Positions 10,617 to 30,289 of a DNA stretch of 64,000 bases are shown one piece after another. Numbering within the stretch: position 1 is the stretch's first letter; the number at the start of each line of letters is the position of its first letter. Below the pieces are notes generated by a model. That model saw only the letters and a program-made list of their open reading frames with translations. It was not told the origin of the DNA and ran no database searches. The stretch covers positions 310,001 through 374,000 of the forward strand of contig NZ_JAENII010000001.1 in NCBI RefSeq assembly GCF_016595525.1, in the 5' to 3' direction. A program made the translations under genes and the position numbers. The stretch comes from Haloferula rosea (lineage in GTDB: Bacteria; Verrucomicrobiota; Verrucomicrobiia; Verrucomicrobiales; Akkermansiaceae).

Positions 10617-10633
10617 GGGTTGGGGAAAGGACA

Positions 10634-10658: not shown

Positions 10659-10679
10659 CATGAGATTGGGTTGTTTGGT

Positions 10680-12947: not shown

Positions 12948-13016
12948 GAAGCGATGAGTGTTGGAATTCTGGAAGCGTCCTTGCAGGGAAGCGTCAGGAG
13001 AAGGGTGCCGTGGGTT

Positions 13017-13733
13017 TCAACGACGGCGGCGAAGAAGGGTGGTGCAAGCCAGGGCCGCCAGCATGACTGTGGACGGCTCCGGGATGTTGGAAGTGATCTG
13101 GAGGGCGTTGAAGGCTCCGCTGCTTTGCTGGTTGGTGTTGATTCCTGTGCCTGTCGAACTGAAGACACCTTGGAAAACGATGGTGATCTCACCCGAGCCA
13201 TCGGGTACCAGACCGGTGAATGATGCGACTGCCGAGTCGTTCTCAAAGACGTCGAAGGACTGGAGCGGCTTGGCACCGCTGTTGTCGGTGACGACGAATG
13301 TCGAAGCGCCGCCGTTGTTTCCCCGGGCGCCATAGAAGACGAGGTCGTAGGTCTCGCTGGCACTCAGTCCCGTCAAGGTGATGGTAGTGTCGGCAGGAGT
13401 CCGAACGAAGAGAGAGTCTCCTGTAGCTGTTGTAGGGGCTCCAGCGAAAGGAGCGGGCTTGGTTCCCGTGCTATAGTCAGCCCCAGATGCGGCCCAAGAT
13501 CCACCATCGTCGAAGTTGGTGACAAGGGTGTAGTCAGTGGCATTGCCCTGATCATCGATCAGGTCAACGGAGGGGGTGGTCAAGGTCGTAGTCCCGCTTG
13601 GCCCATGGACATTGTTCCAGTTGCCGGAGGTCTGATTGTCTGTGCGACCGAAGTCGACGAGCATGGTGGCTGCTTGGAGGTGGGCCGAAAGGCTGACGAT
13701 GGCGAGGGCGCCGGTGAGGGAGGATCGGAACAT
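13017..13733 (-). CDS. PEP-CTERM sorted surface protein
   Basis: A 238-residue exported protein with an N-terminal signal peptide (about 1-21, ending LQAA) and a classic PEP-CTERM tail: the motif PEPS, a short hydrophobic helix (TVMLAALACTTLL) and a terminal RRRR cluster. Such tails direct proteins to exosortase for cleavage and attachment to the surface. No exosortase gene is in this window. The body (about 22-215) is the stand-alone form of the shared domain, with DFGRTDNQ, GNWNNVHGP, ASGADY and YGARGNNGG. It is the first gene of a minus-strand run with 10680-12947 and 5742-10616. A GTCCC/GGGAC dyad lies about 90 bases upstream. Confidence 0.88.
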   Translation of the reverse strand: MFRSSLTGALAIVSLSAHLQAATMLVDFGRTDNQTSGNWNNVHGPSGTTTLTTPSVDLIDDQGNATDYTLVTNFDDGGSWAASGADYSTGTKPAPFAGAPTTATGDSLFVRTPADTTITLTGLSASETYDLVFYGARGNNGGASTFVVTDNSGAKPLQSFDVFENDSAVASFTGLVPDGSGEITIVFQGVFSSTGTGINTNQQSSGAFNALQITSNIPEPSTVMLAALACTTLLRRRR

Positions 13734-13823
13734 GGTGCTTCAGTGGTGTTCGTGGTTCGTGCGAGTCCGTAGGTCGAGTCATCGCGGAAAGACTACTTTG
13801 GAGTCTTCTCACATGGATTCGTC

Positions 13824-13844
13824 GGTCCCCGGAGTTTTGGGACA
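13824..13844 (-). promoter_or_regulatory. GTCCC-N9-GGGAC dyad upstream of the PEP-CTERM operon
   Basis: On the minus strand this reads TGTCCC, then AAAACTCCG, then GGGAC, followed by CGACGAA. The same arms, the same 9-base spacing and similar flanks occur at 20209-20228 ahead of the prepilin-like/sigma/kinase operon. It lies about 90 bases before the PEP-CTERM start at 13733. It could be an ECF-type promoter or a repressor site; the sequence alone does not separate these. Confidence 0.5.
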
Positions 13845-13866
13845 CTCACCAAGAAAAAATCTCGGG

Positions 13867-15933
13867 TCACCGCTGGCCGGGCGTCCGGATCAGCTTCAGT
13901 TCTCGTCGGCTCTGAATCTGCCGGAGCCACTCCTGTGGAAAATCCTGTTTCTCACTGAGTTCGATGGTTTCAAGCATCGGCAGCGAAATGGGGCGGGAGA
14001 GCCTGAGGTCCGCACAATCCTTCAAATTGAGGCGGTGGATGTCAGCCTGATCGAGAGTGGCAAGATCAAAGGGCTCGGAGAGATCCAGTCGGAGCAAGTC
14101 GGTGGGGAGGAACCTCAGGAATGATTTGCCGGAGTAGCCTTTGACCACCGGACGGCGGAGATGGACGGATTGATCCGACCAGATGAACAGAGAGCGTTCT
14201 TTCGATTGGTAGGCGGCGATGATGTGCTCAGGGCCCCCATGAAGGTATTCCAGGAAGGCAATCGCAGGCTCGGCGTTTCTGAAATCGCGTCGCGCTGCCA
14301 CATCGTAAGATAGAATCCGCTCCATCAATGGGCCGCGCCTGGGATTGATCTCCCGGGCACGGCGGAAGAAGTCTGCGAGCATTGCCGGTGAAGGGCGCAG
14401 GCCCCGGTCGTAGTTGAAGCGGGGAAATGCTTCTGCAAACTGCAGGTAATCCCCGAATCGATGTTCTGCGCTGGGCGGGCTCTTCAAGGCCGATGAGAAA
14501 TCGAGTTTGAGGCAGTTCAAGGAGAACAGTTGGAAGATCGCTTCTTGGTTCTGCGGGTCGAATGCGAGGGCAAGTTCGGTCAGTTGGGCAGATTCTTCGA
14601 TGCTGCTGACGGGGGTATCGAAAATTCCGAGGTTCTTGAGACGAATGGCGGAGGAACTCAACTGCTCTGCCAGTTCCTTGCTGGAGCGCCCCGCACGTGC
14701 AGCTTCCTCACGCAGTCGGTCCGCCATCTGACTGGCTTCTCCTTCCAAGCGCTCCGCACGCTGGGCCTGCGCCGCCGTAGCACGACGCTGGTCATTGAGG
14801 CCCTGGATGAAGAGTACGCTGATGACGCTGATTGCCACGGTGGCGATCAGCCCGACCGCCGCAGGTAGGCGGTGTCGGCGGAGAAACAGGATGGATGCCT
14901 TGTAGAAGCTGGGCTCCTCAGCTTCGGTGGCGAATCCCGCGAGGTGTTTTCGAATGTCATCCGCCATCTCAGTGGCCGAGGGGTAGCGTGCGTTCGGCTC
15001 AAGTGAGCAGGCCTTCAGGATAATGGCATCCAGGCTGTCCGGGATCATCTTCTCGGGAAACCGAAGCCGTGGCGGAGGAAAGCACCCGAGTCCCGTCTTT
15101 CTGATGATTTCCTCCTGGGTGGTTCCCGTGATGGGAGGAAGGCCCGTGAGAATGCAGTGAAGGAGGCAACCCAACGCGAACACATCGGTCCGCTGGTCCT
15201 TGGCGGCCCCCGGGCGCAGTTGCTCCGGCGCCATGAAACCCGGTGTGCCCTTGACCTCGCCGTGGATGGTCATGTTTCCGATCGACTCTGTTTGGCCCGG
15301 AAACGGGAGTTCGTCTTCATCGGTTCCGCTATCGGACATCGTCTTGGCGAGGCCCCAATCGCAGACAAGCACCTCGCCGAATCGCTCGGCCTGAATGTTC
15401 TCGGGTTTCAGGTCGAGATGGAGAATGCCCTCGGTGTGGGCGTAGGCGATGGCGTCGCAAACCTTCAGGAACGCATCGATGAGGCGCGGGCGTTCCTCCA
15501 TTCCATGCATCCTTATCAGATCAGCGAGGGTGGACTTGCCCTTCAGATCCATCGTGAAGTAGGGCCGTTTGTCTTCATCGACGCCGACATCGTAGACCTT
15601 GATGATATTCGGATGGCTGAGGGACGATGTGATCCATGCCTCGTTGACGAAAAGGTCGTAGAACTCCGGCCCGCGGTCTTCGCGAAGACGGGCAAAGGCG
15701 ACGCGCCGTCGGGTGCTCGCATCCCAGACGCTCGAAACTTCCTTCAGCGAGCCAAGCCCGAGTGGTGATTCATCGTGGTAGCGTTGCCCTGACTGCGCCT
15801 CGGACAACGTGACAAAGGATGGGCAGAGGGCTTCGAGTCCGTTGTCATCGAGTTCGTTGGCTTCGAAGTAGGCATCCGCGAGGCGGTGGTCTACGGTGAA
15901 GGTCTGGAATTCCCGGTCCTCTGGGGCACTCAT
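13867..15933 (-). CDS. Membrane-anchored Ser/Thr protein kinase, atypical ATP site
   Basis: A 688-residue kinase of the Hanks type. The kinase domain spans about 58-335. HLDLKPEN (172-179), DWG (192-194, for DFG) and APE (235-237, in GTPGFMAPEQ) are present. The strand that normally carries the catalytic lysine (VAxK) reads VAFAR at 78-82, so lysine is replaced by alanine with an arginine next to it, and the glycine loop (GLGSLKEV, 59-66) is degenerate. A single hydrophobic helix lies at about 357-377, followed by a coiled coil (about 381-430) and an unassigned, probably periplasmic, C-terminal region. Its ATG overlaps the stop of the sigma factor gene (ATGA), so it is probably its regulator. 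Confidence 0.85.
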   Translation of the reverse strand: MSAPEDREFQTFTVDHRLADAYFEANELDDNGLEALCPSFVTLSEAQSGQRYHDESPLGLGSLKEVSSVWDASTRRRVAFARLREDRGPEFYDLFVNEAWITSSLSHPNIIKVYDVGVDEDKRPYFTMDLKGKSTLADLIRMHGMEERPRLIDAFLKVCDAIAYAHTEGILHLDLKPENIQAERFGEVLVCDWGLAKTMSDSGTDEDELPFPGQTESIGNMTIHGEVKGTPGFMAPEQLRPGAAKDQRTDVFALGCLLHCILTGLPPITGTTQEEIIRKTGLGCFPPPRLRFPEKMIPDSLDAIILKACSLEPNARYPSATEMADDIRKHLAGFATEAEEPSFYKASILFLRRHRLPAAVGLIATVAISVISVLFIQGLNDQRRATAAQAQRAERLEGEASQMADRLREEAARAGRSSKELAEQLSSSAIRLKNLGIFDTPVSSIEESAQLTELALAFDPQNQEAIFQLFSLNCLKLDFSSALKSPPSAEHRFGDYLQFAEAFPRFNYDRGLRPSPAMLADFFRRAREINPRRGPLMERILSYDVAARRDFRNAEPAIAFLEYLHGGPEHIIAAYQSKERSLFIWSDQSVHLRRPVVKGYSGKSFLRFLPTDLLRLDLSEPFDLATLDQADIHRLNLKDCADLRLSRPISLPMLETIELSEKQDFPQEWLRQIQSRRELKLIRTPGQR

Positions 15934-16523
15934 GGCTCCATTCTTGCAGTCAGGGCACGGATTTCGAGGTAGAGGCGTTTCTTGACCCTTTTCCGGAGGG
16001 TGTAGACGGAGGCCACGGTAAGCCCGGTCTTGTCGGCAATTCGTTCAGTGCTCATCCCGTCGAGGCTCATCTGAAAAATCTCCACGGCATTGCCGCGAAA
16101 AGTCTGGCGAACCCGCTCCATGGCCATTCCCGAGATGTAGGCAGCCCATTCGTGTTCGATGAGGCGGTCGAGGGCACTTTCACCGCATGTGGGATCTTCA
16201 AAGAGCTCCGGGCGACCCGAGGTTTCGAATCGGTTCTTGTAGCGGTTGAGTTTTCGATGGTGTGAGAACGCCGTGTTCCGGATGATCGTGCTCAGCCAAG
16301 TCCGGAACTTCGCTCGCTTGCGGTCATAGTTGGGCAGGCTTTGAGTGAGGGTGAAGAGGACTTGTTGACTGAGGTCATCGATGTCCGCTCGGTCAATATT
16401 GAGCTGATGAAGAATGTGAAAAATGAAGCGGTGGTAGGTTTCCACCAATTCTTCCCACGCGCCGTCACTTCCAGTGTCGACAGCACGCTCCAAGAGGGTG
16501 TAGCGGGTGCCATTGGTGACCAT
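15930..16523 (-). CDS. ECF-family sigma-70 factor
   Basis: A 197-residue RNA polymerase sigma factor. Region 2 includes ELVETYHRFIFHILHQLN and the DIDDLSQQVLFTL core; region 4 has the helix-turn-helix MSTERIADKTGLTVASVYTL followed by RKRVKKRLYLE. The frame extends upstream to ATG 16673, which overlaps the stop of the prepilin-like gene (ATGA). The extra 50 residues are Arg/Pro-rich and unlike sigma factors, so ATG 16523 is preferred, though 16673 cannot be excluded. The downstream gene is a Ser/Thr kinase; sigma/kinase pairs are known in which phosphorylation controls the sigma factor. Target promoters are unproven. Confidence 0.85.
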   Translation of the reverse strand: MVTNGTRYTLLERAVDTGSDGAWEELVETYHRFIFHILHQLNIDRADIDDLSQQVLFTLTQSLPNYDRKRAKFRTWLSTIIRNTAFSHHRKLNRYKNRFETSGRPELFEDPTCGESALDRLIEHEWAAYISGMAMERVRQTFRGNAVEIFQMSLDGMSTERIADKTGLTVASVYTLRKRVKKRLYLEIRALTARMEP

Positions 16524-16557
16524 TCTGCCCAGAATGCAGATTTCGTGCCGTACGGCA
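16521..16557. promoter_or_regulatory. Two dyads at the sigma factor start
   Basis: CATTCTG-CC-CAGAATG at 16521-16536 is a perfect 7-base inverted repeat covering the preferred start codon. Ten bases further is the 12-base palindrome TGCCGTACGGCA at 16546-16557. If translation begins at 16523, these lie in a leader inside the operon and could be protein-binding sites or an RNA hairpin limiting translation. If 16673 is the true start they are coding sequence and may be chance. Confidence 0.3.
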
Positions 16558-16669
16558 AGGCAACGCCGTCCAGGCAAGGGCCGACGACCATGGAACTCGG
16601 TGAGCACCGGGCCGGATTTTCTTCTGGGAAGGTGGTTCGAAGGGGGATGAAAGGCGACTCTGATGGATC

Positions 16670-19600
16670 TCATGTTTCCTGGGGGGACAGCCAGCGGAAG
16701 CTGAGGACTTCGAAGCGTCGGCCCAATCGAGCATTGATGTCGCTTGAGTCGAGATCCCGAGGGTGGGTGCTCGGGGCGATGGAGGAGTCCAGGTAGGCAG
16801 GTGTGCGCTGGAGGGTGGCCTCACACCAGGCGCGAGCCACATTCGTTCCTGAACCGGCTTCTCCATAAGCGCGAATGACAAAGGTGTCGGACCGCACGGT
16901 GATCAGGGGAGCAAGCGGAGTCAGCAAGTCGGCTTGATTGATTACTGCCGGAGCACCATCTCCACTGGTGCCGATACTCGCTTCCGGGAAGGCGGCACCT
17001 GGATCCGCAGCCACTGGCGTGGCACCTGCGAGCGCATCGGAATTGATGCTGGTGCGGTCAATGGCGGATTGAATGGCCCCACTGACTCCGAGTTCTCCAT
17101 TTTCCAAGCGACGGTTGACGAATTCCGAGGTCGATTGGAATGGTCCGCGGAGTCGGATCTGGCGAACCAGTTCTTCAGCAAGCTCTGAGATCTGGTAGTC
17201 GGAAAGACGCCGATGACCTTGCCATACCAGTCGCTCTTTCTGTTCAGGGTCGCTGGCGCTGTCGAGTTGATCTTCAAGCGGGGGAACGTGTCGGCTTACC
17301 AATGTGCCTGTTCCACCTGTCTTGGCGAGAAGGCCTGTGGCGGTCGCGATGCGACGAACGTCGCCCGGCTGAAGGCTTGCAAGAACGGCTTCCCATGCAG
17401 CGACGGAGGTCGAGTTCACATTGAATGCTCCGTGGATCCCCAAGTGTGCGGCGATCTCCTTGTAGCCGACTTCAGGATTTGTGATCGCGGATGCTTCGGG
17501 GGTCTTCACTCCTCGCACCTTGAAGCGCTTCATCCTTGGGTTTGGCAGGCTGGATGATCCTTGGAGAAAGTCGGTGGTGACCTGAAGGAGTGATCGTTCC
17601 GTGCCGAAGGTTTGCTGCGTCTGGCTGGACAAGCTGGAGAAGAAGTATTGGTCGAACAATCGGTGATTGGCGAGGAACGAGTGGTCGAGAAAGGTGCGGC
17701 TTCCCATCGGAGAACGCACGGCTGTGGCCGAGATCAGTGGATGGGCCAGTGAGTTGCCGACGGCCTGGGACTGCAGGGGGATCTGTCCTCCCGTGTTGAT
17801 GGGTGCGTGGCGCAGTTGTGCCATTGAAGTCAATGGAGCAAGCGGGATGCTTGAGAATGGAGCATTGGTCTGCCCGGTCTGTGCGTAGATTCCGGATGCG
17901 CCGAATCCACGGTTGCTGGGATCGATCTCAATGGTTGGAGAGCTGGTCCAATCGGTCATCGCTTCCCAGCTGAACTCGTACTGGTGGTATCTCTCAGCCT
18001 CATCCTGATCGATCCCTGCGGAGGCGTAGAGGTTGGTCGGGCTGTTGTGCAGCCAACTCCTGGAGGGTTCTCTGGAGTCCAGTGCTGTTTTCAGGTGCAT
18101 GGATGCCAGCAGGAACGGCTCCTTGTGACGGCAGTTCGGAGGAGGTGGTGACTTGCTGCTGTCCCCTTGAATGTTGGTCATTCCCCCGGGAACGGTTATC
18201 CACGGAAGATCGCGCGGGGAGTAGGAAGGTAGGAGTTGATTCTCATCGGAACCATAATCGAGTTCGATCGCGCCAACGAGAGGTGGCTCGCTACCCTGGG
18301 TCTGGCCGTCACTTTCGACGTAGTATTTCAGGTAAGAGGTGATCTCCTCGCCATTGGTTTCCCTCAGCTTGTCGATGTTCGCATTGGCGGGTGAGACGGA
18401 TAGCCCGATGGTATCCCCCGCCTTTACTGGAACCACACGGGTGGTGACGCCATTGATCCTTCCCGAGTCCCTGCCAGCGGAGTCGACGCAAAGATTGAGG
18501 CTGGAAACGCCGCCGACGTGCGGGTCGCTGGATTCACCGGCTGGAGCGTTCCAGCCCGGACGCAGGTCGACCCCTTCGAGCATGTAGCGCTGGAGGTAGT
18601 GGGGCATGTGGTTGTGGGCAGTGAACACGAGGTGTTCTCCCGGTTTCATGACGATCTTGTCCGTCGCAGTGCCGCTGGTGTCCAGGCCGGGGAGGATGTT
18701 CAGGCGATAGTATTTTTCGGCCCGTGAGTTGAAGTCACCAGGAAGGTAGGAATTGGCGAACAGGGTGGGATTCGGCGAGACGCTTTGCCCGTTGCGATAG
18801 ATCTGGAACGCAAGAGGTACCCGGTGCAGGTCGACACGGGCACGCTCGAAAGACAGGGAGACATCGTAGGGATTCCACAGGGTGATGACGGGGTCGGTGA
18901 TCAGCCATGCCACCCAATCTTCGCCATCTTTCTGGGCATCTTCAGTGCCCCCCCGCGCCTGTCTCGGAGAGGCACCGAAGCCGATGCTGAAAACGAACTG
19001 GGCCTTGGCAATTACTGGAGCGATCTGCTGCTCGTTGAAGTGGGGATGGAAGATGGTTCGGACCGCAGGCAGCCCGGCCTGTGGACGTTCATTGACCCGG
19101 GTTCCTATTGTTGGCTCGGAGTTCACATTGCGCACCTCGCGATGAAGGCGGGCATGGGAGTGGAGCAGATCCCAGCTTGGATCGGGGGTGGGTATGACAT
19201 GGGCTCCAGAGAATCGGGATGCCGGGTTGACGAGGGGGCGGTTTCCATCGGCATAGAGAAACTTCCTTTCAAACTCGCTGGGCAACGAGTCGTGCTCGAA
19301 GGCGAGGCTGAGGTCTCTGGCTAGACCGCCGTTGGCGACATCAATCGGGATGGCGGTCGAGTAAGCTGTGAGGTGGTGGAAATTCCGGATGTCAGGTTCC
19401 GCTCCGACCAAGGGGATTTGTCCGATGGAGATCAGCTTGAGCCGATCATCGCCAGCACTTTTCAGACTGCTCCAGTTGAGTCCCTCCGCGGTCACCGATC
19501 CAAATCCCGGGCTGGCAGGAGCCGTTTGCAGGGCAAGCTCATCACCCAGGGTCGAAGCCTCGACATCGGGTAGGGTCATGCAGGCTTTCTGGCCTTGATC

Positions 19601-20185
19601 GAGCACGACCCAAGCACCTTGACCCTCATCATCGGATCCGATGGGGAAGGGCTCGGCAAGGACTTGATTTGACCCGAACTCATCACCGGGCACCATCGTG
19701 ATGGCGTCTGAGGAGGGCAAGTTGAGGGCGAAGTCCGGGTCTTCGACGGCGTCATTGTCTGGGCTGGAGACCAGCCAGCCGAGGAAGTCCGACTCCTTAC
19801 GGGTGGCGTAGTCAGGCGTTTGTTGCATGTCCCACTTCCAACTCTTCCACACACCGGTGAGATGGGGACGGGCGGAGGAAGCAACTGAGGCATCAGGGTC
19901 GGCGAGAATTCCCGAACTGGCTGTAATCCTCTGGTCGGCGCCGGCAAGCTCCTGCAACCGGCCGATCGCGAGATTGAGCGAGAGGCGGGCGTTGCTACGA
20001 GCCAAGGCCGCAAGCTCTCCATTGCTGCTTGCCCGGAGCGAGACTGTCGAAAGCGAGAGCATCCCAACGGCCAGAATGGACAGGAGCACCATCAGGATGA
20101 TGGTGATCACGAGGGCGAAGCCTGATCGGACAGTGCGTTTGGTGCGCGGGGTCTTGTGGGGACGGAAGGGAATCAAGAGTAGCAT
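16670..20185 (-). CDS. Giant prepilin-like exported protein (verrucomicrobial type)
   Basis: A 1171-residue protein with a type IV pilin-like N-terminus: basic residues, then SGFALVITIILMVLLSILAV at about 21-40. The glutamate usually found five residues after the cleavage site is absent, as in PilX/GspK-type minor pseudopilins. The region after it (LARSNARLSLNLAIGRLQEL, then GADQRITASSGI) resembles the large prepilin-like proteins of Verrucomicrobia, possibly the family called Verru_Chthon cassette protein A; other cassette members are not seen here. The rest is a large domain without a fold I can name. It is the first gene of a run with the sigma factor and kinase. A GTCCC/GGGAC dyad lies 24 bases before ATG 20185. 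Confidence 0.72.
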   Translation of the reverse strand: MLLLIPFRPHKTPRTKRTVRSGFALVITIILMVLLSILAVGMLSLSTVSLRASSNGELAALARSNARLSLNLAIGRLQELAGADQRITASSGILADPDASVASSARPHLTGVWKSWKWDMQQTPDYATRKESDFLGWLVSSPDNDAVEDPDFALNLPSSDAITMVPGDEFGSNQVLAEPFPIGSDDEGQGAWVVLDQGQKACMTLPDVEASTLGDELALQTAPASPGFGSVTAEGLNWSSLKSAGDDRLKLISIGQIPLVGAEPDIRNFHHLTAYSTAIPIDVANGGLARDLSLAFEHDSLPSEFERKFLYADGNRPLVNPASRFSGAHVIPTPDPSWDLLHSHARLHREVRNVNSEPTIGTRVNERPQAGLPAVRTIFHPHFNEQQIAPVIAKAQFVFSIGFGASPRQARGGTEDAQKDGEDWVAWLITDPVITLWNPYDVSLSFERARVDLHRVPLAFQIYRNGQSVSPNPTLFANSYLPGDFNSRAEKYYRLNILPGLDTSGTATDKIVMKPGEHLVFTAHNHMPHYLQRYMLEGVDLRPGWNAPAGESSDPHVGGVSSLNLCVDSAGRDSGRINGVTTRVVPVKAGDTIGLSVSPANANIDKLRETNGEEITSYLKYYVESDGQTQGSEPPLVGAIELDYGSDENQLLPSYSPRDLPWITVPGGMTNIQGDSSKSPPPPNCRHKEPFLLASMHLKTALDSREPSRSWLHNSPTNLYASAGIDQDEAERYHQYEFSWEAMTDWTSSPTIEIDPSNRGFGASGIYAQTGQTNAPFSSIPLAPLTSMAQLRHAPINTGGQIPLQSQAVGNSLAHPLISATAVRSPMGSRTFLDHSFLANHRLFDQYFFSSLSSQTQQTFGTERSLLQVTTDFLQGSSSLPNPRMKRFKVRGVKTPEASAITNPEVGYKEIAAHLGIHGAFNVNSTSVAAWEAVLASLQPGDVRRIATATGLLAKTGGTGTLVSRHVPPLEDQLDSASDPEQKERLVWQGHRRLSDYQISELAEELVRQIRLRGPFQSTSEFVNRRLENGELGVSGAIQSAIDRTSINSDALAGATPVAADPGAAFPEASIGTSGDGAPAVINQADLLTPLAPLITVRSDTFVIRAYGEAGSGTNVARAWCEATLQRTPAYLDSSIAPSTHPRDLDSSDINARLGRRFEVLSFRWLSPQET

Positions 20186-20208
20186 TCGTTACCCTGATGT
20201 CTTCGATC

Positions 20209-20228
20209 GTCCCGGGCGTCTTGGGACA
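20209..20228 (-). promoter_or_regulatory. GTCCC-N9-GGGAC dyad upstream of the prepilin/sigma/kinase run
   Basis: On the minus strand: TGTCCC, AAGACGCCC, GGGAC, then GATCGAAG. It matches the dyad at 13824-13844 in both arms, in spacing (9 bases) and in part of the spacer and downstream flank. It is 24 bases before the start codon, so if it is a promoter the leader is very short. Shared use by the sigma factor's own operon and the PEP-CTERM operon would fit autoregulation, but this is inference. Confidence 0.5.
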
Positions 20229-20323
20229 GATGAGTGGGGAAAAGTTCTGAATTTGTGCCTCTGTCATCTTCCGGAGTATGCTGCGGGACGGCTCGGGAGA
20301 ACCTTGTTGTCGTCCGAGAAGAC

Positions 20324-21811
20324 CTATTTGAGTCGTGGAGCGGTGTGCCCACGCTTCTGGTCTTCTGAGAGGGCCTTTTGCATGGCGGCGACCCGTTCGG
20401 GGTGTTTGGTGGCGAGGTTGTTCTTTTGCCCGATGTCCTCGGCGAGGTTGTAGAGTTCGACCGCAGAGCCGTCGTCCTTGGGCTGGTTGTGTTTCTCATT
20501 CCACTCCTTCGGTGCCTGGCGGAGGTAGCCGGTTTTGGCGTCGATGAGGAGCCAATCACCGTCGCGGTAGGCGTAGTGGTCTTTCTTGGTGTTGTGCACC
20601 ATGGAGTCCCGTGGGCCTGTCTCGGAGTTGCCTCTCAAGTAGGGCAGGAAGTCGTGGGAGTCATGGGCGGAGTCATCCGGCAATTCGAAGCCGACGGCGG
20701 CGGCAAGGGTGGCCATGAAATCAACTTGTGAGATCAATTCGGGCGAGACGGAGCCGGGTTTCGTCAGTCCGGGCCAACGGATGAGGAAGGGGACATGGTG
20801 CCCGCCTTCGTAGATGTCGCGCTTCAGGCCGCGGAGTGGAGCCGGGGACCAGTGGTCGTATTTCTGATCGCGGGCGAAGGCGTAGTATTCGGGTCCGTTG
20901 TCGGCGGTGAAGATGACGATGGTGTTGTCGGCATGTCCTGACTCTTCAAGGGCCTTGAGAATACGGCCGCAGGAGTCGTCGGTCTGGTGAACGAAGTCGC
21001 CGTAGGGGCCGGCCTTGGAGGTGCCGTCGAATTCATCGTTCGGGATGATGGGTGCGTGGGGTGACGGGAAGGGGACGAAGAGGAAGAAGGGTTGGGTGTT
21101 GCCCTTCCTGCCCTCGACGTAGCGGACCGCTTTTTTGGTGAGAGTGGGCAGGACCTGGTAGAAATCCCAATCGTCCATGGCCGGACCGGGTCGGCACTCC
21201 CAGTTTCCTTCCTTGGTCTCCGCGGCGGGTTTCCGGAGGGTGGTATTGGGCGCGGTGACAAGCTTGTCGTCCTCGATCCATGCGTAGGGCGGGAAGTTGA
21301 TGACGGTGTCACCGAAGTAGTGATCGAAGCCGTGGTCGAGAGGGCCGCCGGGAACGGGCTTGGACCAGTCGAAGTGTTGATGGTCGATCGACTTCTTCGG
21401 GGTGCCAGGTTTGCGAATGGCGTCCCAGTCCCAGCCCAGATGCCATTTGCCGATGCAGGCGGTGGCGTAGCCCTTTTCCTGCAGCATCTGTGGAAGGGTC
21501 AGTTGGTCTTTCTTGAAGACCGACTTGCCCAACGCGTTGACGATGCCATGGAAGTCGCGCCAGTGGTGGCGCCCGGTCAGCAGTGCGTAGCGTGAGGGAG
21601 TGCAGATGCCTGAAGAGGAGTGGCCGTCGGTGAATCGCATGCCTGAGGCCGCCAACTTGTCGAGGTGGGGAGTGGGGATCTTGCTGTCCGGATTGTAGCA
21701 GCCCAGGTCGCCGTATCCGAGGTCATCGGCATAGAGGATGACAATGTTTGGTTGGGCGGCTTGAGTTGGGACCCAGAAGGCGAGCGCTACGAGAGCAGCT
21801 GGAAGTTTCAT
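20324..21811 (-). CDS. Secreted sulfatase
   Basis: A 495-residue formylglycine-dependent sulfatase. A signal peptide (about 1-19, ending TQAA) is followed by [15 protein letters not shown] with the first calcium-binding aspartates, then the CTPSR motif with Cys70, the residue normally converted to formylglycine. Other signatures are [11 protein letters not shown] (about 120) and the [11 protein letters not shown] segment. Length and architecture match arylsulfatase A-like enzymes acting on carbohydrate sulfates. It begins 57 bases downstream of the next sulfatase gene on the same strand, so the pair may be co-transcribed. The substrate is not known from sequence. Confidence 0.92.
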
Positions 21812-21867
21812 GATGTCCTTTTACCCCATGAACCATCTTCACCTATCACCCGGTGAGGGACTCGTGA

Positions 21868-24800
21868 TCACGGGGTGAGGACCACTCGGTAGAATCTGCG
21901 ACCGGGCAGGGAGATGCCCGGATCTGCAAGGTCCGCGGCTGTGGTGCTCGCACCTCCGGAGGGCACGTCCGTGGCGAGGGGACTCCAGCTACCGAGGCCA
22001 TCGGAAACCTCGATGTCATAGGAAAAACCGGCTTCGCTGTTCCAGGTCAAGGTCACGGTCTTGGCCGACAGGTCGACGGAGGAGGCGGTGATGTGGAAGG
22101 TCTGCCCGAATGGGACGACGACGTCCGCAACGTCCGGACCGGGGTAATCGACTTCGGCACCCGTGGATCGAAGGGTGAGCTTGTGGGCTTCCCAATCCGG
22201 ATCCGGCTGGGTGAGCCAATCATCCATTTGAGAGGCCATCTGGTCGGCGATGTCGCCGTAAAGCAGATGATTCGAGTAGCTGCCGTCGATGAGGTCAGTG
22301 GTTTCCGAAATGTCCGAGCTGAACTTGAACAACTGCCATGGATCACCAAGTGGATCGAGTCCTTCCTGCTGGTCTTCTGTGGATGACGGGTTGCCGGTGT
22401 AGGTGAGGTCGTAGTTGTAGATCAGTTTGTAGTCCTCTCCATCGATCCTTGCGATGGCGACGTCCACGGGGCGTGCCCGCTGATCGAGGTAGCCCGGGAA
22501 GTGATAGAAGATCGGGCTTCGCTTGCGCGGTGTACCGACCGGGTCGGTCATGTGGGCTGCGAAGGATTCCCCGTCGAAGGTGATGCCCGCCGGCATGGAT
22601 ACGCCGGCGTGTTCAAGTAGGGTGGGGTAGATGTCGACCGCGTGGACGAGGGTATCCGTCTGACTGGCGGCTGGCACTGTGCCCGGCTGACGAAGGATCA
22701 TCGGCACGCGAAGCCCGCCATTCCAGAACGATCCCTTGCGGTGGCGGAGCGGGTCGTTGTCGGTCGGTCCGATGTGACCTCCATTGTCGGAGATGAAGAC
22801 GATCAGGGTATTGTCAGCGATGGAATCGGATGGATCGCCGTCACCATTGGGGTCGTCGAGGCGGTCGAGGATCCGCCCGATGTTCTGATCCATGCCCTCG
22901 ACGAGGCCCGCGTAGTCGACGTTGTCATGGGTGGCGCTGGGTGTGATGCCGGTGGCATATTTCGTGGTGAGATCCGGGCGGTCCTGGATGGGGGTGTGGA
23001 CGGCGTAAAAGTGGACCTGCATGTAGAGCGGCCGGTCAGCAAGGTTACCGGTGGTGTGATCACGAATGAAGGCGGTGGCGGCATCTCCCATGGCATCGGT
23101 GAGGTGCTTGTTGTCGTTACCGAGTACGTCGGGATCGTTGGGCTTCTCCTGGGGGAAAATCAGAGGGTAGTTGCTGGCCCGGTCATTGAGCGGATTGCTG
23201 GGCGGAGCCTTGAGAACCGTGTCGATGTAGCTCTGGTCGTAAGGGGCGGCGTAGGAAGCCAGACCGGGGCCGATTGCCGTGTTCCAGACACCACTACTGG
23301 CGAAGAAGTTGCCCGGGTTGCCGTTCTCCTTGCCGCCGAAATTGAAATCAAAGCCCTGGTTCTCGGGCATCGAGGCAAGTCCGGTTTCGTGGTTGGCGAC
23401 GTGGTATTTGCCAAGATGGGCGGTGACGTAGCCCGCCTCCTGAAGTGCCTCGGGTGAAATGACATGGGCGACGGGGATGTCTTCGTTCTGGGATGGACCG
23501 AGATAGGTCGTGCCGCTTCCCCCGCGATTGAGGCTGTCGACATGATAGACGCCATTGCCGGAACGCGAGGGGTACTGTCCGGAAAGCAGGGCAGCCCGTG
23601 TCGGGGCGCAGTTCGGATGCACGAAGGTGTGCGTGAATGAGAGTCCTTCCGTGGCGAGTCGAGCGAGGTTGGGCGTCTGATAGAAGCTGGTTCCGTGGTT
23701 GGTGCCGTTGATGACATTCGGTCCGGTTGGGCCGCATTGGATGTCGGTCCAGCCGAGGTCATCCGCGAGGATGAATACGATGTTGGGCTTGCCTGTGGGT
23801 ACCGGTGGCGATGCTTCCTGCGTGCCGATGACGGCGAACAGGAGGTCGGCATCGGGGTTGTTCAGTGGGCGCCATCCAAGTGCGCTGTTGTTGCGTGCTC
23901 CGGCACCGGTGGGGTAGAGCGGGTCTTCGGAGAAGCGTAGGGGAAAGCTGGTCGATCCGAGGCCTTCGAGTGTGATGATGTAACTTCCCCGCTTGAGTTC
24001 CACGGCGGTGGGCAGGGTAATCTGGAATCGGTCGCCGGCAACGAGTCCGGATGGAAGCGAGGCGATGCCGGAAACGATCGGATCCAGCAGCCACGGGATG
24101 CCATCCATGGCTTGATGCAGTGCGATCTTGAAGTCCCCGGGGGTGGCGACTCCACCGGACTCGAAGACGAAGCTCCCGATGGTTGCGGGTGCGCCGAGTG
24201 AGAAACTCTGACCCTTCTGATTTCCAGCGGCCACGATGGTGATACCCACGTTGGTTGCCGGGTTGGGATTCTCCGTGAGGACGGGAGTCGGTGGGGTGGT
24301 GACAATGGAGGCCTGAAGCGTGGGGGAGACGCTGAACTCGTTGAGCAATACGTCATTTCCACCACCTGAGATGGTCAGTTCGAGCACGGTGTTCGCCTGG
24401 ATGATGCTGATCCCTCCGGTGACGATGGGATCGCTGGACAGGAGAATGTCGTAGGCCGGGCCTTGGTTGCCATCCCCTGTGATGGAAAGTGAACTTCCCG
24501 AGGTGAATGGGTTCACCCCGGAGACGAAGCTGAGCACGGCGGTTTCACCATTGCTGAAATTTCCGAAGCGAAGGGAATCAAGTAGGACGTCCTGACCGAA
24601 GCTGAACTGGATGGATTCTCCCTTGTCGCCTTCCAATCGGGTTTCATTAGCACCGGATTCATTGTCGGTGCTGACGCCGAAGCCCTGGCCATTGGCGCCG
24701 ATCTCCGCGGCGCCGCTGGTTGAGAGGGCGGTCAGGCTGAGCGCGACACCGTCGATGGTGGCGGTGGTGGAAGGGACCGATGCATCGCTCACGTTGACAT

Positions 24801-24927
24801 TGCCCGACGCCCCCTGGCTGTTGTTGCCCGAGGTGCTGCCTGTTTCTGAGAAGTCGAAAACTGCGGCGTGGGATGAAAGCGCGGAGGATACGAGGATCGG
24901 GAGTAGGAGACTGGGTCGTGGCATCAT
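21868..24927 (-). CDS. Large secreted sulfatase with N-terminal beta-sandwich domains
   Basis: A 1019-residue exported sulfatase. From ATG 24927: signal peptide 1-22; a beta-rich domain about 23-203 starting VFDFSETGS; a second beta-rich segment about 210-372; the sulfatase domain from about 379 with GKPNIVFILADDLGWTD and CAPTR (Cys440, predicted formylglycine), later HLGKYH and FISDNGGH. The C-terminal 90 residues resemble the short beta-sandwich tails found in many verrucomicrobial exported proteins. The frame is open to ATG 25011, but the signal peptide places the start at 24927 (or 24924). The N-terminal domains may bind carbohydrate or the cell surface; this is inference. Confidence 0.87.
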   Translation of the reverse strand: MMPRPSLLLPILVSSALSSHAAVFDFSETGSTSGNNSQGASGNVNVSDASVPSTTATIDGVALSLTALSTSGAAEIGANGQGFGVSTDNESGANETRLEGDKGESIQFSFGQDVLLDSLRFGNFSNGETAVLSFVSGVNPFTSGSSLSITGDGNQGPAYDILLSSDPIVTGGISIIQANTVLELTISGGGNDVLLNEFSVSPTLQASIVTTPPTPVLTENPNPATNVGITIVAAGNQKGQSFSLGAPATIGSFVFESGGVATPGDFKIALHQAMDGIPWLLDPIVSGIASLPSGLVAGDRFQITLPTAVELKRGSYIITLEGLGSTSFPLRFSEDPLYPTGAGARNNSALGWRPLNNPDADLLFAVIGTQEASPPVPTGKPNIVFILADDLGWTDIQCGPTGPNVINGTNHGTSFYQTPNLARLATEGLSFTHTFVHPNCAPTRAALLSGQYPSRSGNGVYHVDSLNRGGSGTTYLGPSQNEDIPVAHVISPEALQEAGYVTAHLGKYHVANHETGLASMPENQGFDFNFGGKENGNPGNFFASSGVWNTAIGPGLASYAAPYDQSYIDTVLKAPPSNPLNDRASNYPLIFPQEKPNDPDVLGNDNKHLTDAMGDAATAFIRDHTTGNLADRPLYMQVHFYAVHTPIQDRPDLTTKYATGITPSATHDNVDYAGLVEGMDQNIGRILDRLDDPNGDGDPSDSIADNTLIVFISDNGGHIGPTDNDPLRHRKGSFWNGGLRVPMILRQPGTVPAASQTDTLVHAVDIYPTLLEHAGVSMPAGITFDGESFAAHMTDPVGTPRKRSPIFYHFPGYLDQRARPVDVAIARIDGEDYKLIYNYDLTYTGNPSSTEDQQEGLDPLGDPWQLFKFSSDISETTDLIDGSYSNHLLYGDIADQMASQMDDWLTQPDPDWEAHKLTLRSTGAEVDYPGPDVADVVVPFGQTFHITASSVDLSAKTVTLTWNSEAGFSYDIEVSDGLGSWSPLATDVPSGGASTTAADLADPGISLPGRRFYRVVLTP

Positions 24928-25086
24928 GGGGAGGGGAGGGACGCTGGGGAATCGGCGGTTGGCGCTCAGGCACGGAATCAGGTCATCATCTGGGAGGGTC
25001 CATTCAAGCAAAGAAATCGCAGAAAAAGGCAGAGAAATACTGAAAAATACCGAAATAAAGACGATTGGGGCGGCGTTTTGGGAGCA
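24928..25086. promoter_or_regulatory. Divergent intergenic region with phased A-tracts
   Basis: This space separates the minus-strand sulfatase from the plus-strand three-gene run. Between 25010 and 25060 it holds A-tracts centred at about 25025, 25036, 25045 and 25054, roughly one helical turn apart, a pattern associated with bent DNA or UP elements. A GGGAG ribosome-binding sequence precedes ATG 25087. No clear -35/-10 pair was identified. Confidence 0.4.
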
Positions 25087-27369
25087 ATGAGATTTTGGAC
25101 ACTAGCAATGGTGATGGGGGCATGGCTGCCTGTCGGGGCGACGCCGCTGGAGGTGAAGCCGCTTTCTGTCGAGCGGGGGTGGTTTCTGCCCGGCGGGGAG
25201 AGCGGTGCGGCACTGGCACCGGGCGAGTCGGTCGTCGGTGATGTCGAGGTGCCGGAGCTTTCTGAAAAAGAGGCGGGTTTGCCGGGCGCGTGGCGCGGCG
25301 TGCTGGCGCTGGATGTTTACGGAACGTCCGGGAATGGGTCCGGTCGGGTGAAGCTGGAGGCGATTGATCCGGCATCGGGTGAGGCTTTTGCGAAGGCTGA
25401 GGCGGAGGTATCGGGGCCGGCGCCGCGGGCGGTTTGGGCAGCCATTGCTTCTTCAGCCCAAGGTGGATCGGACGTTTCCAAGGTGTTTGATCGGAATCCG
25501 AAGACCGACTGGCACTCAAGGTACGGGAAGGACCAGCCGAAGCCGCCACATTGGATCGGGGTGGAGTTCGGACAGGCCACGGTGATCGAGGGGGTGCGCT
25601 ATCTACCTCGCCAGGGAGGTTTCACCAATGGTGTCGCCAAGGACTACCGGGTGGAGGTTCGCCGTGCCGGTCGGGCTGACTGGGAGGTGATGGAGGAAGG
25701 CACGAGCGATCGGGTGTCGGTGGCGGACAAGCGCGGTCCGATCGAGGTGCGTTTCGAGAAGCCCATGGCGGTGGAGGCATTCCGCTTTGTGGTCGTGAGT
25801 GACTGGAGCGGTGGAGGCTTCGGCACTGCGGCGGAGCTTGAGGCGATTGGGTTGAAGTTGCCCGAGCGCGAGGAAACGGTTGAGGCCTCCGAGAGGGCGT
25901 GGCTTGAAGTTCCAGCAGAGTTGCTCGAATCGTTGACTGGCAAGCGCTTTGGCTTGCGTGTCGTTTCGGCCGGTGGAGCGACTGTCGTGGTCGGGACTCC
26001 ACGGTGGTGTCGGATCCACGAAGCTCCGACGGGTAAGCTGTTCGGTCGCTCGAATGGGGGCCTTGGTCCGGACAAGCTTGGGGCGGGTCTGCTCGGGTTC
26101 GATGGAATGACCGAGCACAAGCAGACGGTGCTCTCCGTGATGAAGGTTCGCGAGGGCGGCCCTGCCGCGAAGGCGGGCTTGGTGGTCGGAGACGCGATTG
26201 TCTCGGCGAGTGGATCGCCGCTGCCGGTGAACGATCTGAATCCGGGATGGGAGTGGTTTCAGCGAAGTCACGAGGCGGTTCTCGGTCGGGCGACGGAGGC
26301 GGTTCTTGCGGCAGGCGGCACGACGCTTGATCTCGGCGTGCTGCGCGACGGGAAGGTTCAGACCTTGAAGGTGAAACTTCCACGGATGAAGGCCTTCACG
26401 ACCATGAACCCCGAGACCGATCCGGTCGCTGCCGAGCTGTTGGAAGACTCCCTGAACTGGGTGCGTGAGAACCAGAGGCCCGACGGATCCTGGTCGGGTG
26501 ACATGAAGCGGACGACCTTCGCCGGATTGGCTTTGCTTGCGACAGGGGAGAAGCGCGATGTCGAGCAGGTGAAGAGGGCGATCGATTGGGGTTTGGAAAA
26601 GTTCCCGTCGCCCGAGAAGCACGGGAACCTTGGGTTCTGGGCGGGATCGTACATGGGCATCCTCTACAGTGAATGGTATCTCCGCACGGAGGATGACCGG
26701 GTGCTCGCCCATCTCGAACTCATGCGGGACTGGGCTTACGAAGGTCAGCACAACTGCAAGTGGGATGTTCCGGCCCTTGGCCACGGGCCCAGTGGCCTAC
26801 CGTATGGAGAGAAGGCCTTGGTGGCCCCGGCCTGCCACCTGCTGGTCTTCGAGGCACTGGCACAGCGCTGCGGTATGGAATCGAAGCTGTGGGAACTATT
26901 GATGCCGTACATGGAGATGTCCTGGTCCGATCCGAAGGAAGGGGGCCATGGAGCCATGGGCTACAACCGATCCTACAAGGACCTCGGAGAATTCTGGTCG
27001 AGGAGTGGTCTGTTCGCGACGGCCGCCCATCTGCGGGGTGAACGTCAGGACATGGAGAAGTCGATGACCAAGATCATGGTCGAGCGCCACTCGTGGTTCC
27101 GCAACAGCCACGCCTACGGGGAGCCCGGAGGCGGGCTTGGCTTGCTGGCCTTGAATCTGTGCGATCCTGAAAACTACTCAAAGGTCATCAAGGACTACGC
27201 CTGGTGGTTCTCCCTGGCTTGGGAGCCGGACTACGGACTGCGTTTCACGACTCCTCACATGGGTGCTCCCTACATGGGCGAGGATGATCTGATGAATGTG
27301 GTTTACGCTCTGGTGCTCCAGGGGCCGAAGCAATCCCTGCATCTGACCGGTAAGACGTCGAAGCCATGA
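25087..27369 (+). CDS. Exported discoidin-PDZ-toroid protein
   Basis: A 760-residue exported protein. The preferred ATG 25087 has GGGAG seven bases upstream and gives a signal peptide ending PVGA; the frame also has an upstream TTG at 25078. Domains in order: a beta-rich region; an F5/8 type C (discoidin) domain at about 120-260 with VFDRNPKTDWHSRYG and GVEFGQATVIEGVRYLPR; a PDZ domain at about 345-430 with GGPAAKAGLVVGDAIVSASG; and an alpha/alpha-toroid-like domain from about 455 with NQRPDGSWSGDMKRTTFAGL, similar to squalene-cyclase-like folds. It may belong to the DUF6288 group; I am not sure. It overlaps the next gene by ATGA. Function is unknown; binding of carbohydrate and peptide ligands is plausible. 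Confidence 0.78.
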   Translation: MRFWTLAMVMGAWLPVGATPLEVKPLSVERGWFLPGGESGAALAPGESVVGDVEVPELSEKEAGLPGAWRGVLALDVYGTSGNGSGRVKLEAIDPASGEAFAKAEAEVSGPAPRAVWAAIASSAQGGSDVSKVFDRNPKTDWHSRYGKDQPKPPHWIGVEFGQATVIEGVRYLPRQGGFTNGVAKDYRVEVRRAGRADWEVMEEGTSDRVSVADKRGPIEVRFEKPMAVEAFRFVVVSDWSGGGFGTAAELEAIGLKLPEREETVEASERAWLEVPAELLESLTGKRFGLRVVSAGGATVVVGTPRWCRIHEAPTGKLFGRSNGGLGPDKLGAGLLGFDGMTEHKQTVLSVMKVREGGPAAKAGLVVGDAIVSASGSPLPVNDLNPGWEWFQRSHEAVLGRATEAVLAAGGTTLDLGVLRDGKVQTLKVKLPRMKAFTTMNPETDPVAAELLEDSLNWVRENQRPDGSWSGDMKRTTFAGLALLATGEKRDVEQVKRAIDWGLEKFPSPEKHGNLGFWAGSYMGILYSEWYLRTEDDRVLAHLELMRDWAYEGQHNCKWDVPALGHGPSGLPYGEKALVAPACHLLVFEALAQRCGMESKLWELLMPYMEMSWSDPKEGGHGAMGYNRSYKDLGEFWSRSGLFATAAHLRGERQDMEKSMTKIMVERHSWFRNSHAYGEPGGGLGLLALNLCDPENYSKVIKDYAWWFSLAWEPDYGLRFTTPHMGAPYMGEDDLMNVVYALVLQGPKQSLHLTGKTSKP

Positions 27370-29408
27370 GAAGCAATCATCGTTGGAGTGCTCTCGTCCT
27401 CGCTCTGCTCGTCGGGTTGACGGGAGTACACGCGGCCGAGGAGTCGGGGAATCCGGCCTTGGACGAACTCAGGCGTACGATCGGGGAGTCCGAGTGGGAA
27501 ACCTGGGTGGCCGCACCCGACCACCGGAGGTTTCTCGCCGAACTGAAGAATCCCGACGGATGGTTGGACGAGCTCATGCATTCCGGCCCATTGCCGGATG
27601 ATCCGGCGAAGATGCTGTCGCTTGCGGCTGCGCTGTGGAAGAGCGATGCCTCCGGGCTGCGCGACCGTTATGAGTTGACCACGGCTGCTGCGGTGGCACT
27701 GACCTTCGGACAAAAATCGTGGCCGGGTGAGGAGGAAGCGATGAGTCGCTACGTGTATTTCAGGGATTCCCGCAGGCAGGGGCTCCTGCATCCGATGTTC
27801 GACCAGCTTGAGACATGGGAGAAACGCTTTGTGGTCTCTGCTGGCAACAATGGTCGGTGGGGCGACAAGGGTGGCTGGGGAGACGACTCGCTGGTATGGC
27901 TCCGTGATCATGTGAAACTTCCCGTTTCGGCCTATGTCGGTGCCTGCTGGCAGGCGCCCTACCGGCTGCACAATGTCTTTGGCGATTCGATCCATGGCAG
28001 GAACTACTATGCTCCCTTTAGTGACATGATTCATGCCGAGCGTGTCCGTGATGTCGGTGGGGTCTGTGGCTCGCTGTCCCACTACGGGGCCACGGCGGCG
28101 CGTGCCAACGGCATCCCGGCGATCACGATGGGGGAGCCGGGTCACTGTGCCTATGCGGTGCGCGTAGCACGGGGAGAGTGGACGCCTGCCTACAGCTTGT
28201 CGTGGAAGCGTGGCCTGCATACTTCGCTGTGGGGGAGAACATGGACGCAGCTGCTCCTCCAGGAGAAGGTGATGACCGACAGCGAGGCCACACGCCGAAG
28301 CACGGAGGAACTCTGGGAAGCCCGGTCCCACCTCGGAGGAGATCCGAAGAAGGTGGCTGACGCCTATCGGCGGGCGATTGCCGCCCAGCCCCTTGCTCAT
28401 CCGACCTGGTTGGAATTCGCCAAGTGGCAGTTGGACGTGGCGAAACCTTCGTTGATCGAGTGGAAGCAGTTTCATGACGAGGTCCTGGTGGCCTTCGCCG
28501 ACTATCCGGAAGCGGCGTGGGATGTGCTCAAGGTGTTCATGCCTTCGATTCTCCCGCAGGTTCCCGCCGAGGAACGGATGCCCTTCCTGGTGGCGTTTCA
28601 TGATGCGATTGCGGATCACCCGGGTCCGGTGATGTGGAACATCGAGGCGGCGCTCAACGAGCAGGCCACCATGTTGGGTGGAGACACGGCGACGCAGCTT
28701 GAGTTCTTCGAACAGGTGGTTGCCATGCAGCTTCGCTCCGAGCGGTGGCTGGCACCCTTGGTAGCTTGGGGGCGGAACCGGTTTGTGAAGGAAGGAGAGG
28801 ATGCGAACGCATTCTTCAACGCGCTCACGGCGGGTCTTGCGTCTGGGGGTGAGGGAAGTGAGTCGCTCGGGAAGGTGCTGAGACCGGTCATCCTGGCGGC
28901 GGCCGAAAGTGGGAATGCGGATGCGTTTCAAGGCTTGAGTCAGCTGAGATCTTCGGCTGAGACCGAGGCCCCGGATTACGAGCCCTTCGATGGGGAGCTT
29001 TTGTCGGCAGGAGGGATCCTGACGGTTTCAACGACGAGCCGCTGGGACCGCCCGGAGGAACACGCCGCCCTGCTCGGTCCGGGCATCGGCTTCTTCCACA
29101 CGAATGCCGAGGTGCGGCCCCATGCCATCGTGCAACTTTCGAAGCTGGGGGAACTCAGTGGCCTGGTTGTGATCGAAAACTCCTGGGGTCACAACGCGAA
29201 CCGAATCATGCCGTTCAAGGTTTCCGTGTCGGAGGATGGGGAGACATGGACGGAAGTGGGGCGCTTGGAGAAGCACGAGAAGGTGTGGCGATTGCCGCTG
29301 GATGAACGTGCGGCTCGGGTTGCGTATGTGAAGATCGAACGCGATGACGATCGCAAGGAGGTCTTCCACCTCCATGGGATTCACGTATTTGGAAGGAGGC
29401 TCCAATGA
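27366..29408 (+). CDS. Exported transglutaminase-like protein with C-terminal discoidin-like domain
   Basis: A 680-residue exported protein with a signal peptide (about 1-24, ending VHAA). The middle contains a transglutaminase/papain-like core: GGVCGSLSHYGATAARANGI with a candidate catalytic cysteine at about residue 235, then GEPGHCAYAVRV with a candidate histidine. The C-terminal 150 residues resemble a discoidin domain (ELSGLVVIENSWGHNANRIM, then SEDGETWTEVG). It overlaps both neighbours by ATGA, so the three genes are probably made together. It may crosslink or cleave peptides or amidated sugars; the activity cannot be read from sequence. Confidence 0.72.
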   Translation: MRSNHRWSALVLALLVGLTGVHAAEESGNPALDELRRTIGESEWETWVAAPDHRRFLAELKNPDGWLDELMHSGPLPDDPAKMLSLAAALWKSDASGLRDRYELTTAAAVALTFGQKSWPGEEEAMSRYVYFRDSRRQGLLHPMFDQLETWEKRFVVSAGNNGRWGDKGGWGDDSLVWLRDHVKLPVSAYVGACWQAPYRLHNVFGDSIHGRNYYAPFSDMIHAERVRDVGGVCGSLSHYGATAARANGIPAITMGEPGHCAYAVRVARGEWTPAYSLSWKRGLHTSLWGRTWTQLLLQEKVMTDSEATRRSTEELWEARSHLGGDPKKVADAYRRAIAAQPLAHPTWLEFAKWQLDVAKPSLIEWKQFHDEVLVAFADYPEAAWDVLKVFMPSILPQVPAEERMPFLVAFHDAIADHPGPVMWNIEAALNEQATMLGGDTATQLEFFEQVVAMQLRSERWLAPLVAWGRNRFVKEGEDANAFFNALTAGLASGGEGSESLGKVLRPVILAAAESGNADAFQGLSQLRSSAETEAPDYEPFDGELLSAGGILTVSTTSRWDRPEEHAALLGPGIGFFHTNAEVRPHAIVQLSKLGELSGLVVIENSWGHNANRIMPFKVSVSEDGETWTEVGRLEKHEKVWRLPLDERAARVAYVKIERDDDRKEVFHLHGIHVFGRRLQ

Positions 29409-30289
29409 ATCGTTGGCTGAGTGTTTGGATCGCGTTGCTGTTGCCGCTGCTGGGCGTCGAGCGTGCCGCCGACTTTACGGAGGCGCTTGAGTTGGCCAAG
29501 GCCGGGGGCAAGGACATCGCGGTTCTCTACCACGGATCCGAGTGGTGCGTGCCGGGACGACCGCTGGCGGAGCGATGGGAGTCGGATGGTTTTGAGAAAG
29601 CACTGGGCGCGGATCTCATCCTGGTCGGGATCGATACGAAGGAGCACCCGACGGAAGCCGAGGCGGAGTTGGGCAAGCGGAATGACCGGTGTCCGGTGAA
29701 ACCCCGGAGCTATCCGGCGGTGATGCTTTTCGACTCCGAGGGGCGGCTTGTGGCGCGGCGCGATGGAGTGTCGGAGATCAAGGCGATGGGGGTCCTGGAG
29801 ACGGCGCTTGAGCGGGCGGTTGAAGTCCGCAAGCAGCGCGACATGCATTGGGCTGAAGCTGAAGCGGCGGAAGGACAGCGTGCTGCCAGGCTTTTCGGTG
29901 AAGGACTGGACCTCATGAATCTCGGGCTCGGCCCGAAGAACATCTACAAGCCCGTCCTGGACAAAATGAAGGCCGCCGATCCCGATGATCAGTCGGGCTT
30001 CGCTGCGCGCTACGAGTTTCCTGGCATGGGGCTCGTGGGTCAGTCGACGAAGTTGGCAGGCGAGAAGAAGTTTGAGGAAGCGGATGCCGAGATTTCGAAG
30101 TGGCTGAGCAAGAAACGGCTGACGGATGATCAGAAGCAAGTCGCCTGGTCGGCAAGGTTCGCGCTCTATCAGCGATGGCCCGAACGCAAGGAGAAGGTGC
30201 CGGATGTGCTGAAAGCGCTGCAACGGGTGGACCCGGATTCCGACATGGGAAAGGCGGCTGCCCAGTATCTCAAGATGCTGGAGCAGTGA
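29405..30289 (+). CDS. Exported thioredoxin-like protein
   Basis: A 294-residue protein with a signal peptide (about 1-21, ending VERAA) and a thioredoxin-fold domain (about 24-140): KDIAVLYHGSEWCVPGRPLA, where a normal CxxC is reduced to a single cysteine (WCVPG), and SYPAVMLFDSEGRLVAR, the cis-proline strand. A helical C-terminal part (about 150-290) looks like a TPR-type scaffold. It is the last gene of the run that starts at 25087 and overlaps the previous stop by ATGA. A single active-site cysteine argues against a disulfide oxidoreductase and for thiol-linked binding or a degenerate role. Confidence 0.7.
   Translation: MNRWLSVWIALLLPLLGVERAADFTEALELAKAGGKDIAVLYHGSEWCVPGRPLAERWESDGFEKALGADLILVGIDTKEHPTEAEAELGKRNDRCPVKPRSYPAVMLFDSEGRLVARRDGVSEIKAMGVLETALERAVEVRKQRDMHWAEAEAAEGQRAARLFGEGLDLMNLGLGPKNIYKPVLDKMKAADPDDQSGFAARYEFPGMGLVGQSTKLAGEKKFEEADAEISKWLSKKRLTDDQKQVAWSARFALYQRWPERKEKVPDVLKALQRVDPDSDMGKAAAQYLKMLEQ

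Follow-up and report, generated by a model that had tools for sequence, protein, structure and literature searches.

A conserved couple of a transglutaminase-like protein and a thioredoxin-fold partner without CxxC at a Haloferula rosea locus

The window considered here, a stretch of 64,000 nucleotides from the 4.68 Mb genome of Haloferula rosea, carries three consecutive genes encoding the proteins P1 (gene 1), P2 (gene 2) and P3 (gene 3), whose coordinates and domain layouts are collected in Table 1 (below, G labels refer to genomes and L labels to fetched stretches). An earlier note, made from the letters alone, had described three genes linked by two ATGA overlaps and had proposed that their products form a co-made exported complex. 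The gene arrangement is confirmed by coordinates and sequence; the idea of a complex stands for genes 2 and 3, since 160 of 169 distinct P2 homologs have P3 adjacent or fused to them, and not for gene 1. The signal peptides of the three proteins were judged by eye and are putative, and gene 1 has an alternative TTG start at 25078 that would give a protein of 763 aa.

Table 1. Genes, overlaps, motif codons and protein layouts at the locus (positions in the window; residue numbers for proteins)
Feature	Position	Strand	Description
Gene 1 (P1)	25087-27369	+	760 aa from ATG 25087; F5/8 type C + PDZ + DUF6288
ATGA stop/start overlap, genes 1/2	27366-27369	+	read from sequence
Gene 2 (P2)	27366-29408	+	680 aa; predicted exported
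Codons for G-G-V-C-G	28056-28070	+	residues 231-235, presumed nucleophile motif
Codons for P-G-H-C	28137-28148	+	residues 258-261, His-Cys motif
ATGA stop/start overlap, genes 2/3	29405-29408	+	read from sequence
Gene 3 (P3)	29405-30289	+	294 aa; predicted exported; thioredoxin fold, then helical C-terminal domain
P2 layout			helical N-part ~30-160; transglutaminase-fold core (Cys234, His260, Cys261); from predicted model + alignment
P2 layout, C-terminal half			helical middle with TPR-like helices 306-530; discoidin-type jelly roll 540-680

One of the key features of this locus is the association of P2 with P3. As the set of P2 homologs was chosen by P2 alone, the pairing is not built into the counts, although the model used to recognize P3 was itself derived from P3 proteins of the first stretches. 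Pooling gave 181 proteins, or 169 distinct ones, of which 144 have P3 directly downstream, 16 are fused to it in one frame with P3 first, and nine show neither arrangement by a distance rule (in two of these nine, the first copy of L189 and L324, P3 nevertheless lies in a neighboring or overlapping frame). When named genomes were scanned with the P2 alignment, 347 relatives came up, and P3 is directly downstream or fused in all 80 loci kept as the best of these; scanning 387 further genomes from the phylum added 20 stretches, in most of which P3 and P2 share one reading frame. As a control, no P3 match was found in 10 stretches around related transglutaminase-like proteins outside the couple. 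The couple occurs in Verrucomicrobiota, Kiritimatiellota and Planctomycetota, including Luteolibacter, Haloferula, Akkermansia, Rubritalea, Puniceicoccales, Kiritimatiellales and several Planctomycetota. A tree built from 68 of the 169 P2 rows requires four exchanges between the fused and separate states, at least three of these switches being forced by well-supported branches. P2 and P3 thus constitute, on strong grounds, a conserved unit, and the two proteins probably form a physical complex. Three natural P3-P2 fusions (L162, L167 and L168) carry about 220-240 residues inserted within the P3 thioredoxin domain.

P3 is related to thioredoxins, as its window copy matches Thioredoxin_7 (E 5e-4) and DsbH (E 3.1e-5), and the P3 part of the L188 natural fusion finds its best structural match in DsbH (Z 14.8, rmsd 2.9, 122 aligned). 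Its thioredoxin part has W47, C48 and cis-Pro104, and the CxxC motif is absent. The label of a single-cysteine protein, initially given to gene 3, has to be abandoned, as two cysteines are present (48 and 96), neither of them conserved, and the redox motif is lost family-wide. Indeed, CxxC occurs in none of the 159 distinct P2-linked P3 proteins, all of which keep cis-Pro104; the first position of the motif is occupied by Asp (66), Asn (31), Cys (21), Ser (17), His (13) or other residues (11). Paralogs of the same two-domain layout that are not linked to P2 have kept CxxC in 21 of 24 cases. Sequence comparison thus argues strongly that P3 is a redox-dead thioredoxin, in which the redox function would have been lost. 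A second structure model (alignment A3) reached pLDDT 87.7 and pTM 0.84, with about 80 C-terminal residues of 34 separate P3 rows misplaced in the alignment, and the P3-P2 arrangement in this model is not reliable.

What kind of protein is P2? Eight residues (Val233, Cys234, Gly235, Gly249, Pro258, His260, Cys261 and Trp272) are invariant in all 169 distinct sequences. In the predicted model of the window protein (pLDDT 90.3), Cys234 opens a helix (234-247) and His260 opens a strand (260-268), and a Cys at a helix start followed by a His on the next strand is the layout of transglutaminases. No Pfam family other than Transglut_core (PF01841) matches the core of the window protein, and it does so with an E-value of 0.035 and 14.8 bits against a cut-off of 23; searched at E up to 10, it matched five of 23 transglutaminase-like rows, and above cut-off the P2 core is named by none of the Pfam or NCBIfam models. 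Profile comparison (hhalign) of P2 with 22 canonical transglutaminase cores from relatives of the host gave a probability of 72% and an E-value of 3.3e-5, with Cys, His and Trp each paired with their counterparts. A related verrucomicrobial protein (L265) is matched both by the P2 profile (E 8.6e-24) and by Transglut_core (E 5.1e-4). The catalytic geometry that the earlier note had expected of the core is therefore present in part: Cys and His are invariant, and the canonical Asp is absent. The position of this Asp, counted from Trp, falls in column 276, which holds Tyr (118), Phe (32), Asn (18) or Ile (1) in the 169 P2 proteins, while Asp occupies it in at least 90% of canonical transglutaminase cores from relatives. 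P2 may thus be described as a Cys-His protein of transglutaminase type that lacks Asp and has an extra invariant Cys after His; a further cysteine, Cys194, is found in 134 of 169 P2 proteins and could form a putative disulfide with Cys261. Sister transglutaminase-like proteins (L257, L258, L259, L260, L262, L263 and L264) show the motifs GG[VIK]CG and GHC or GHA; no P3 neighbor turned up within the stretches of some 10 kb around them, and two of these proteins (L262 and L260) carry ricin-type or F5/8C lectin domains.

Discoidin-like domains had been noticed on two of the three genes, and this is supported for gene 1 by Pfam and for gene 2 by the predicted model. The window P2 scores 22.0 bits with F5/8 type C (PF00754), below the cut-off of 28.2 that several of its relatives pass, and residues 540-680 of the model form a clear discoidin/CBM32-like jelly roll. 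The closest comparison listed for this domain is with the F-type lectin 3cqo (Z 17.7, rmsd 2.0, 135 aligned), and several CBM32 modules reach Z of about 13-14. The fucose motif of F-type lectins is HX24RXDX4(R/K) (PMC5712786). The strict motif occurs in none of the 169 P2 proteins, and a loosened pattern in 32; a fucose-type lectin identity for the P2 C-terminus was rejected on this basis. Some P3 proteins bear a second F5/8C domain (L107), and the L188 fusion has, after P3, a CBM-like beta domain that matches the C-terminal part of 8pxu (Z 10.6, 105 aligned), the structure of a glycan-acting enzyme of A. muciniphila. Domains of this kind suggest that P2-P3 may be targeted to glycans.

The third member of the locus behaves differently. 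The PDZ domain and toroid attributed to gene 1 are borne out by matches to PDZ_2 (E 3.3e-7) and to DUF6288 (PF19805; E 3.1e-28, 99.5 bits against a cut-off of 26.3), the toroid part also giving weak squalene-cyclase matches, and F5/8 type C is clear (E 1e-16, 61.6 bits against 28.2). Conserved co-occurrence of the three genes was not found. In one common set of 189 genomes from the order, searches with P1, P2 and P3 gave matches in 104, 64 and 110 genomes, respectively, many P1 matches arising through the discoidin domain only and many P3 matches through general thioredoxin similarity. When all three families were mapped on 80 fetched stretches (74 around P2 homologs and six around P1 homologs), P1 adjoined P2, among the P1-bearing genomes listed, in four sampled genomes of one genus only (G000, G064, G100 and G114), namely the window genome and three others (L097-L099). 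P2 and P3 are absent from the six other P1 stretches with their 6 kb flanks (L171-L176), and two further stretches of the same genus (L100 and L101) hold a close P2-P3 pair with P1 not adjacent. The trio as one system was consequently rejected; since P1 stands next to P2 in one genus only and alone elsewhere, gene 1 is a local companion, probably a recent one, co-transcribed by position, and not a conserved partner of P2-P3. DUF6288 passes its cut-off at three other places of the host genome (one split in two pieces), and a literature search on this family found nothing. A far stronger member than gene 1 (489 bits), at G000:C69:144336-145520, adjoins two sulfatase matches.

Sulfatases also lie next to the locus itself, the trio being flanked by divergent sulfatase genes upstream and by a convergent methyltransferase gene downstream; a search for sigma-70-like promoters found none, against 1.0 expected. 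On the minus strand of the window, the stretch from 5742 to 25011 brings together a sigma-70-type factor, a Ser/Thr kinase gene and three sulfatase genes, one of which encodes two sulfatase domains. Near P2, relatives of sulfatases occur in L107, L199, L202, L206 and L212 (L199 was not listed by a stricter search). This neighborhood was considered as a clue to the substrate and rejected as uninformative, because the host genome contains 117 sulfatase matches.

P2 was found in all 26 sampled genomes of an Akkermansia-like genus (E 1.2e-72 or better), often in several copies, so that the couple is probably of importance both to a major commensal of the human gut and to free-living relatives. In two Akkermansia-like homologs (L136:4342-7923 and L143:4372-7926), P2 is preceded by an N-terminal Ser/Thr kinase domain, the P2 part being extracytoplasmic. 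In L136, the kinase (Pkinase, E 3.8e-39, residues 52-315) has intact HRDIKPVN and DFG motifs and is separated by a hydrophobic stretch from P2 (531-1191). In L143, the kinase match is weaker (E 4e-16), a membrane segment (345-363) lies between kinase and P2, and HRD and DFG are lost.

How could these features fit together? The explanation that we favor, with somewhat better than even chances, is that P2 and P3 are the two subunits of a single exported enzyme found in Verrucomicrobia and Planctomycetes, a glycan-targeted thiol enzyme associated with a redox-dead thioredoxin subunit, acting as an amidase or acyltransferase. In such an enzyme, Cys234, at the start of its helix and activated by His260, would attack an amide or ester, while the discoidin-type domain of P2, together with the extra carbohydrate-binding-like domains on the P3 of some relatives, would hold the enzyme on a glycan or glycoprotein. 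P3, having given up redox chemistry, would act as an obligate binding or stabilizing subunit. Outside the cytoplasm, the enzyme would most likely hydrolyze a glycosylated protein or peptide, or carry out acyl transfer on it. That P2 is an active thiol enzyme is proposed with moderate confidence, and any given substrate is a guess to which we attach weak confidence.

Several observations weigh against this explanation. No P3 lies near P2 in seven of the 169 cases (L145, L148, L169, L170, L307, L322 and L323; the L148 stretch runs off a contig end). The third catalytic residue, Asp, is not conserved, and without it P2 might be only weakly active, have a different type of activity, or be inactive. 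Similarity to transglutaminases is remote, with both the sub-threshold Pfam score and the hhalign probability quoted above, and the lists of solved folds were filled by discoidin and thioredoxin domains, so that the transglutaminase core was not reached and no fold family is excluded. When 1195 neighbors from 173 loci were clustered, no recurrent third gene pointing to a substrate emerged, most clusters reflecting local synteny; the representatives scanned were an Mntp-family gene, FtsZ, an ABC transporter, a c-type cytochrome, a phosphoesterase, a sulfatase, a C39-type peptidase and a glutamyl-tRNA reductase. Finally, the use of P2 as the outer part of a kinase in one lineage fits sensing as well as catalysis.

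Sensing is indeed the main rival, although we regard it as unlikely overall: P2-P3 would bind an extracellular glycan or glycopeptide, perhaps covalently via Cys234, and report to a partner, as the two Akkermansia-like polypeptides that begin with a kinase domain and a membrane segment could suggest, and as the missing Asp, which suits binding over turnover, would allow. However, among the 77 P2 proteins in the first set (part of which was scanned), a kinase is known in only two, both Akkermansia-like, most others looking simply exported, and the strict invariance of Cys and His in 169 P2 proteins, kinase-bearing copies included, exceeds the usual need of a binding role. The same invariance bears on a somewhat less probable alternative, in which the pair would be inactive and serve the envelope only as a structural element or a lectin: the loss of the third catalytic residue, the inactive thioredoxin partner and the several carbohydrate-binding-like domains would agree with it, but a structural protein is not expected to keep Cys234, His260 and Cys261 in 169 of 169 sequences across several phyla. 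Protein crosslinking, one of the options raised by the earlier note, whereby a transglutaminase would fix surface proteins, draws on the Cys and His of the transglutaminase-like core; it appears distinctly improbable, as the catalytic triad lacks its Asp, bacterial proteins with this core are mostly peptidase-like, and no paired substrate gene recurs nearby. The least probable proposal is a redox upkeep of the P2 catalytic Cys by P3, in the manner of DsbG, which keeps single-cysteine periplasmic enzymes reduced: a thioredoxin-fold gene does nearly always stand beside an exported Cys protein, and the window P3 has two cysteines, but a role of P3 in keeping Cys234 reduced is disfavored, and a redox partnership largely refuted, because linked P3 proteins lack CxxC, with Asp, Asn, Ser, His, Gln or another residue at the first Cys position in 138 of 159.

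Taken together, P2-P3 would offer a clean example of a thioredoxin redeployed as a non-redox subunit, as well as a candidate for a new enzyme acting on glycoproteins. A bolder version, to which we give little credence, sees in the couple a class of exported thiol enzymes or receptors with two subunits that would be new to science, common among Verrucomicrobia and Planctomycetes and shared by every Akkermansia-like genome sampled, where a redox-dead thioredoxin would be the obligate regulatory subunit of a Cys-His transglutaminase-fold protein without Asp, reading glycoproteins covalently and signaling through an attached Ser/Thr kinase in some species. A literature search, with most subscription papers outside it, found no description of the P2-P3 pair.

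The couple can finally be set against the known systems it resembles. Gene 1 is a member of DUF6288 by score, a family that is not bound to P2-P3. The P2 C-terminal domain resembles the jelly rolls of F5/8 type C, CBM32 and F-type lectins by its fold, the fucose motif being missing. P3 shares with DsbH and Thioredoxin_7 the thioredoxin fold and the cis-Pro, but differs from them by the absence of CxxC in all linked copies (0/159) and by an extra helical domain. The P2 core follows the transglutaminase-like superfamily (PF01841) in the order of Cys (helix start), His (next strand) and Trp; in contrast, it stays below the Pfam cut-off, has Tyr, Phe or Asn in place of Asp and an invariant Cys right after His, and is nearly always coupled to P3. 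Another comparison is with the eukaryotic peptide:N-glycanase Png1, which, like P2, combines a transglutaminase fold with a carbohydrate-binding domain, and acts on glycoproteins; unlike P2, Png1 has kept its Asp, is cytosolic, and works without a thioredoxin partner.

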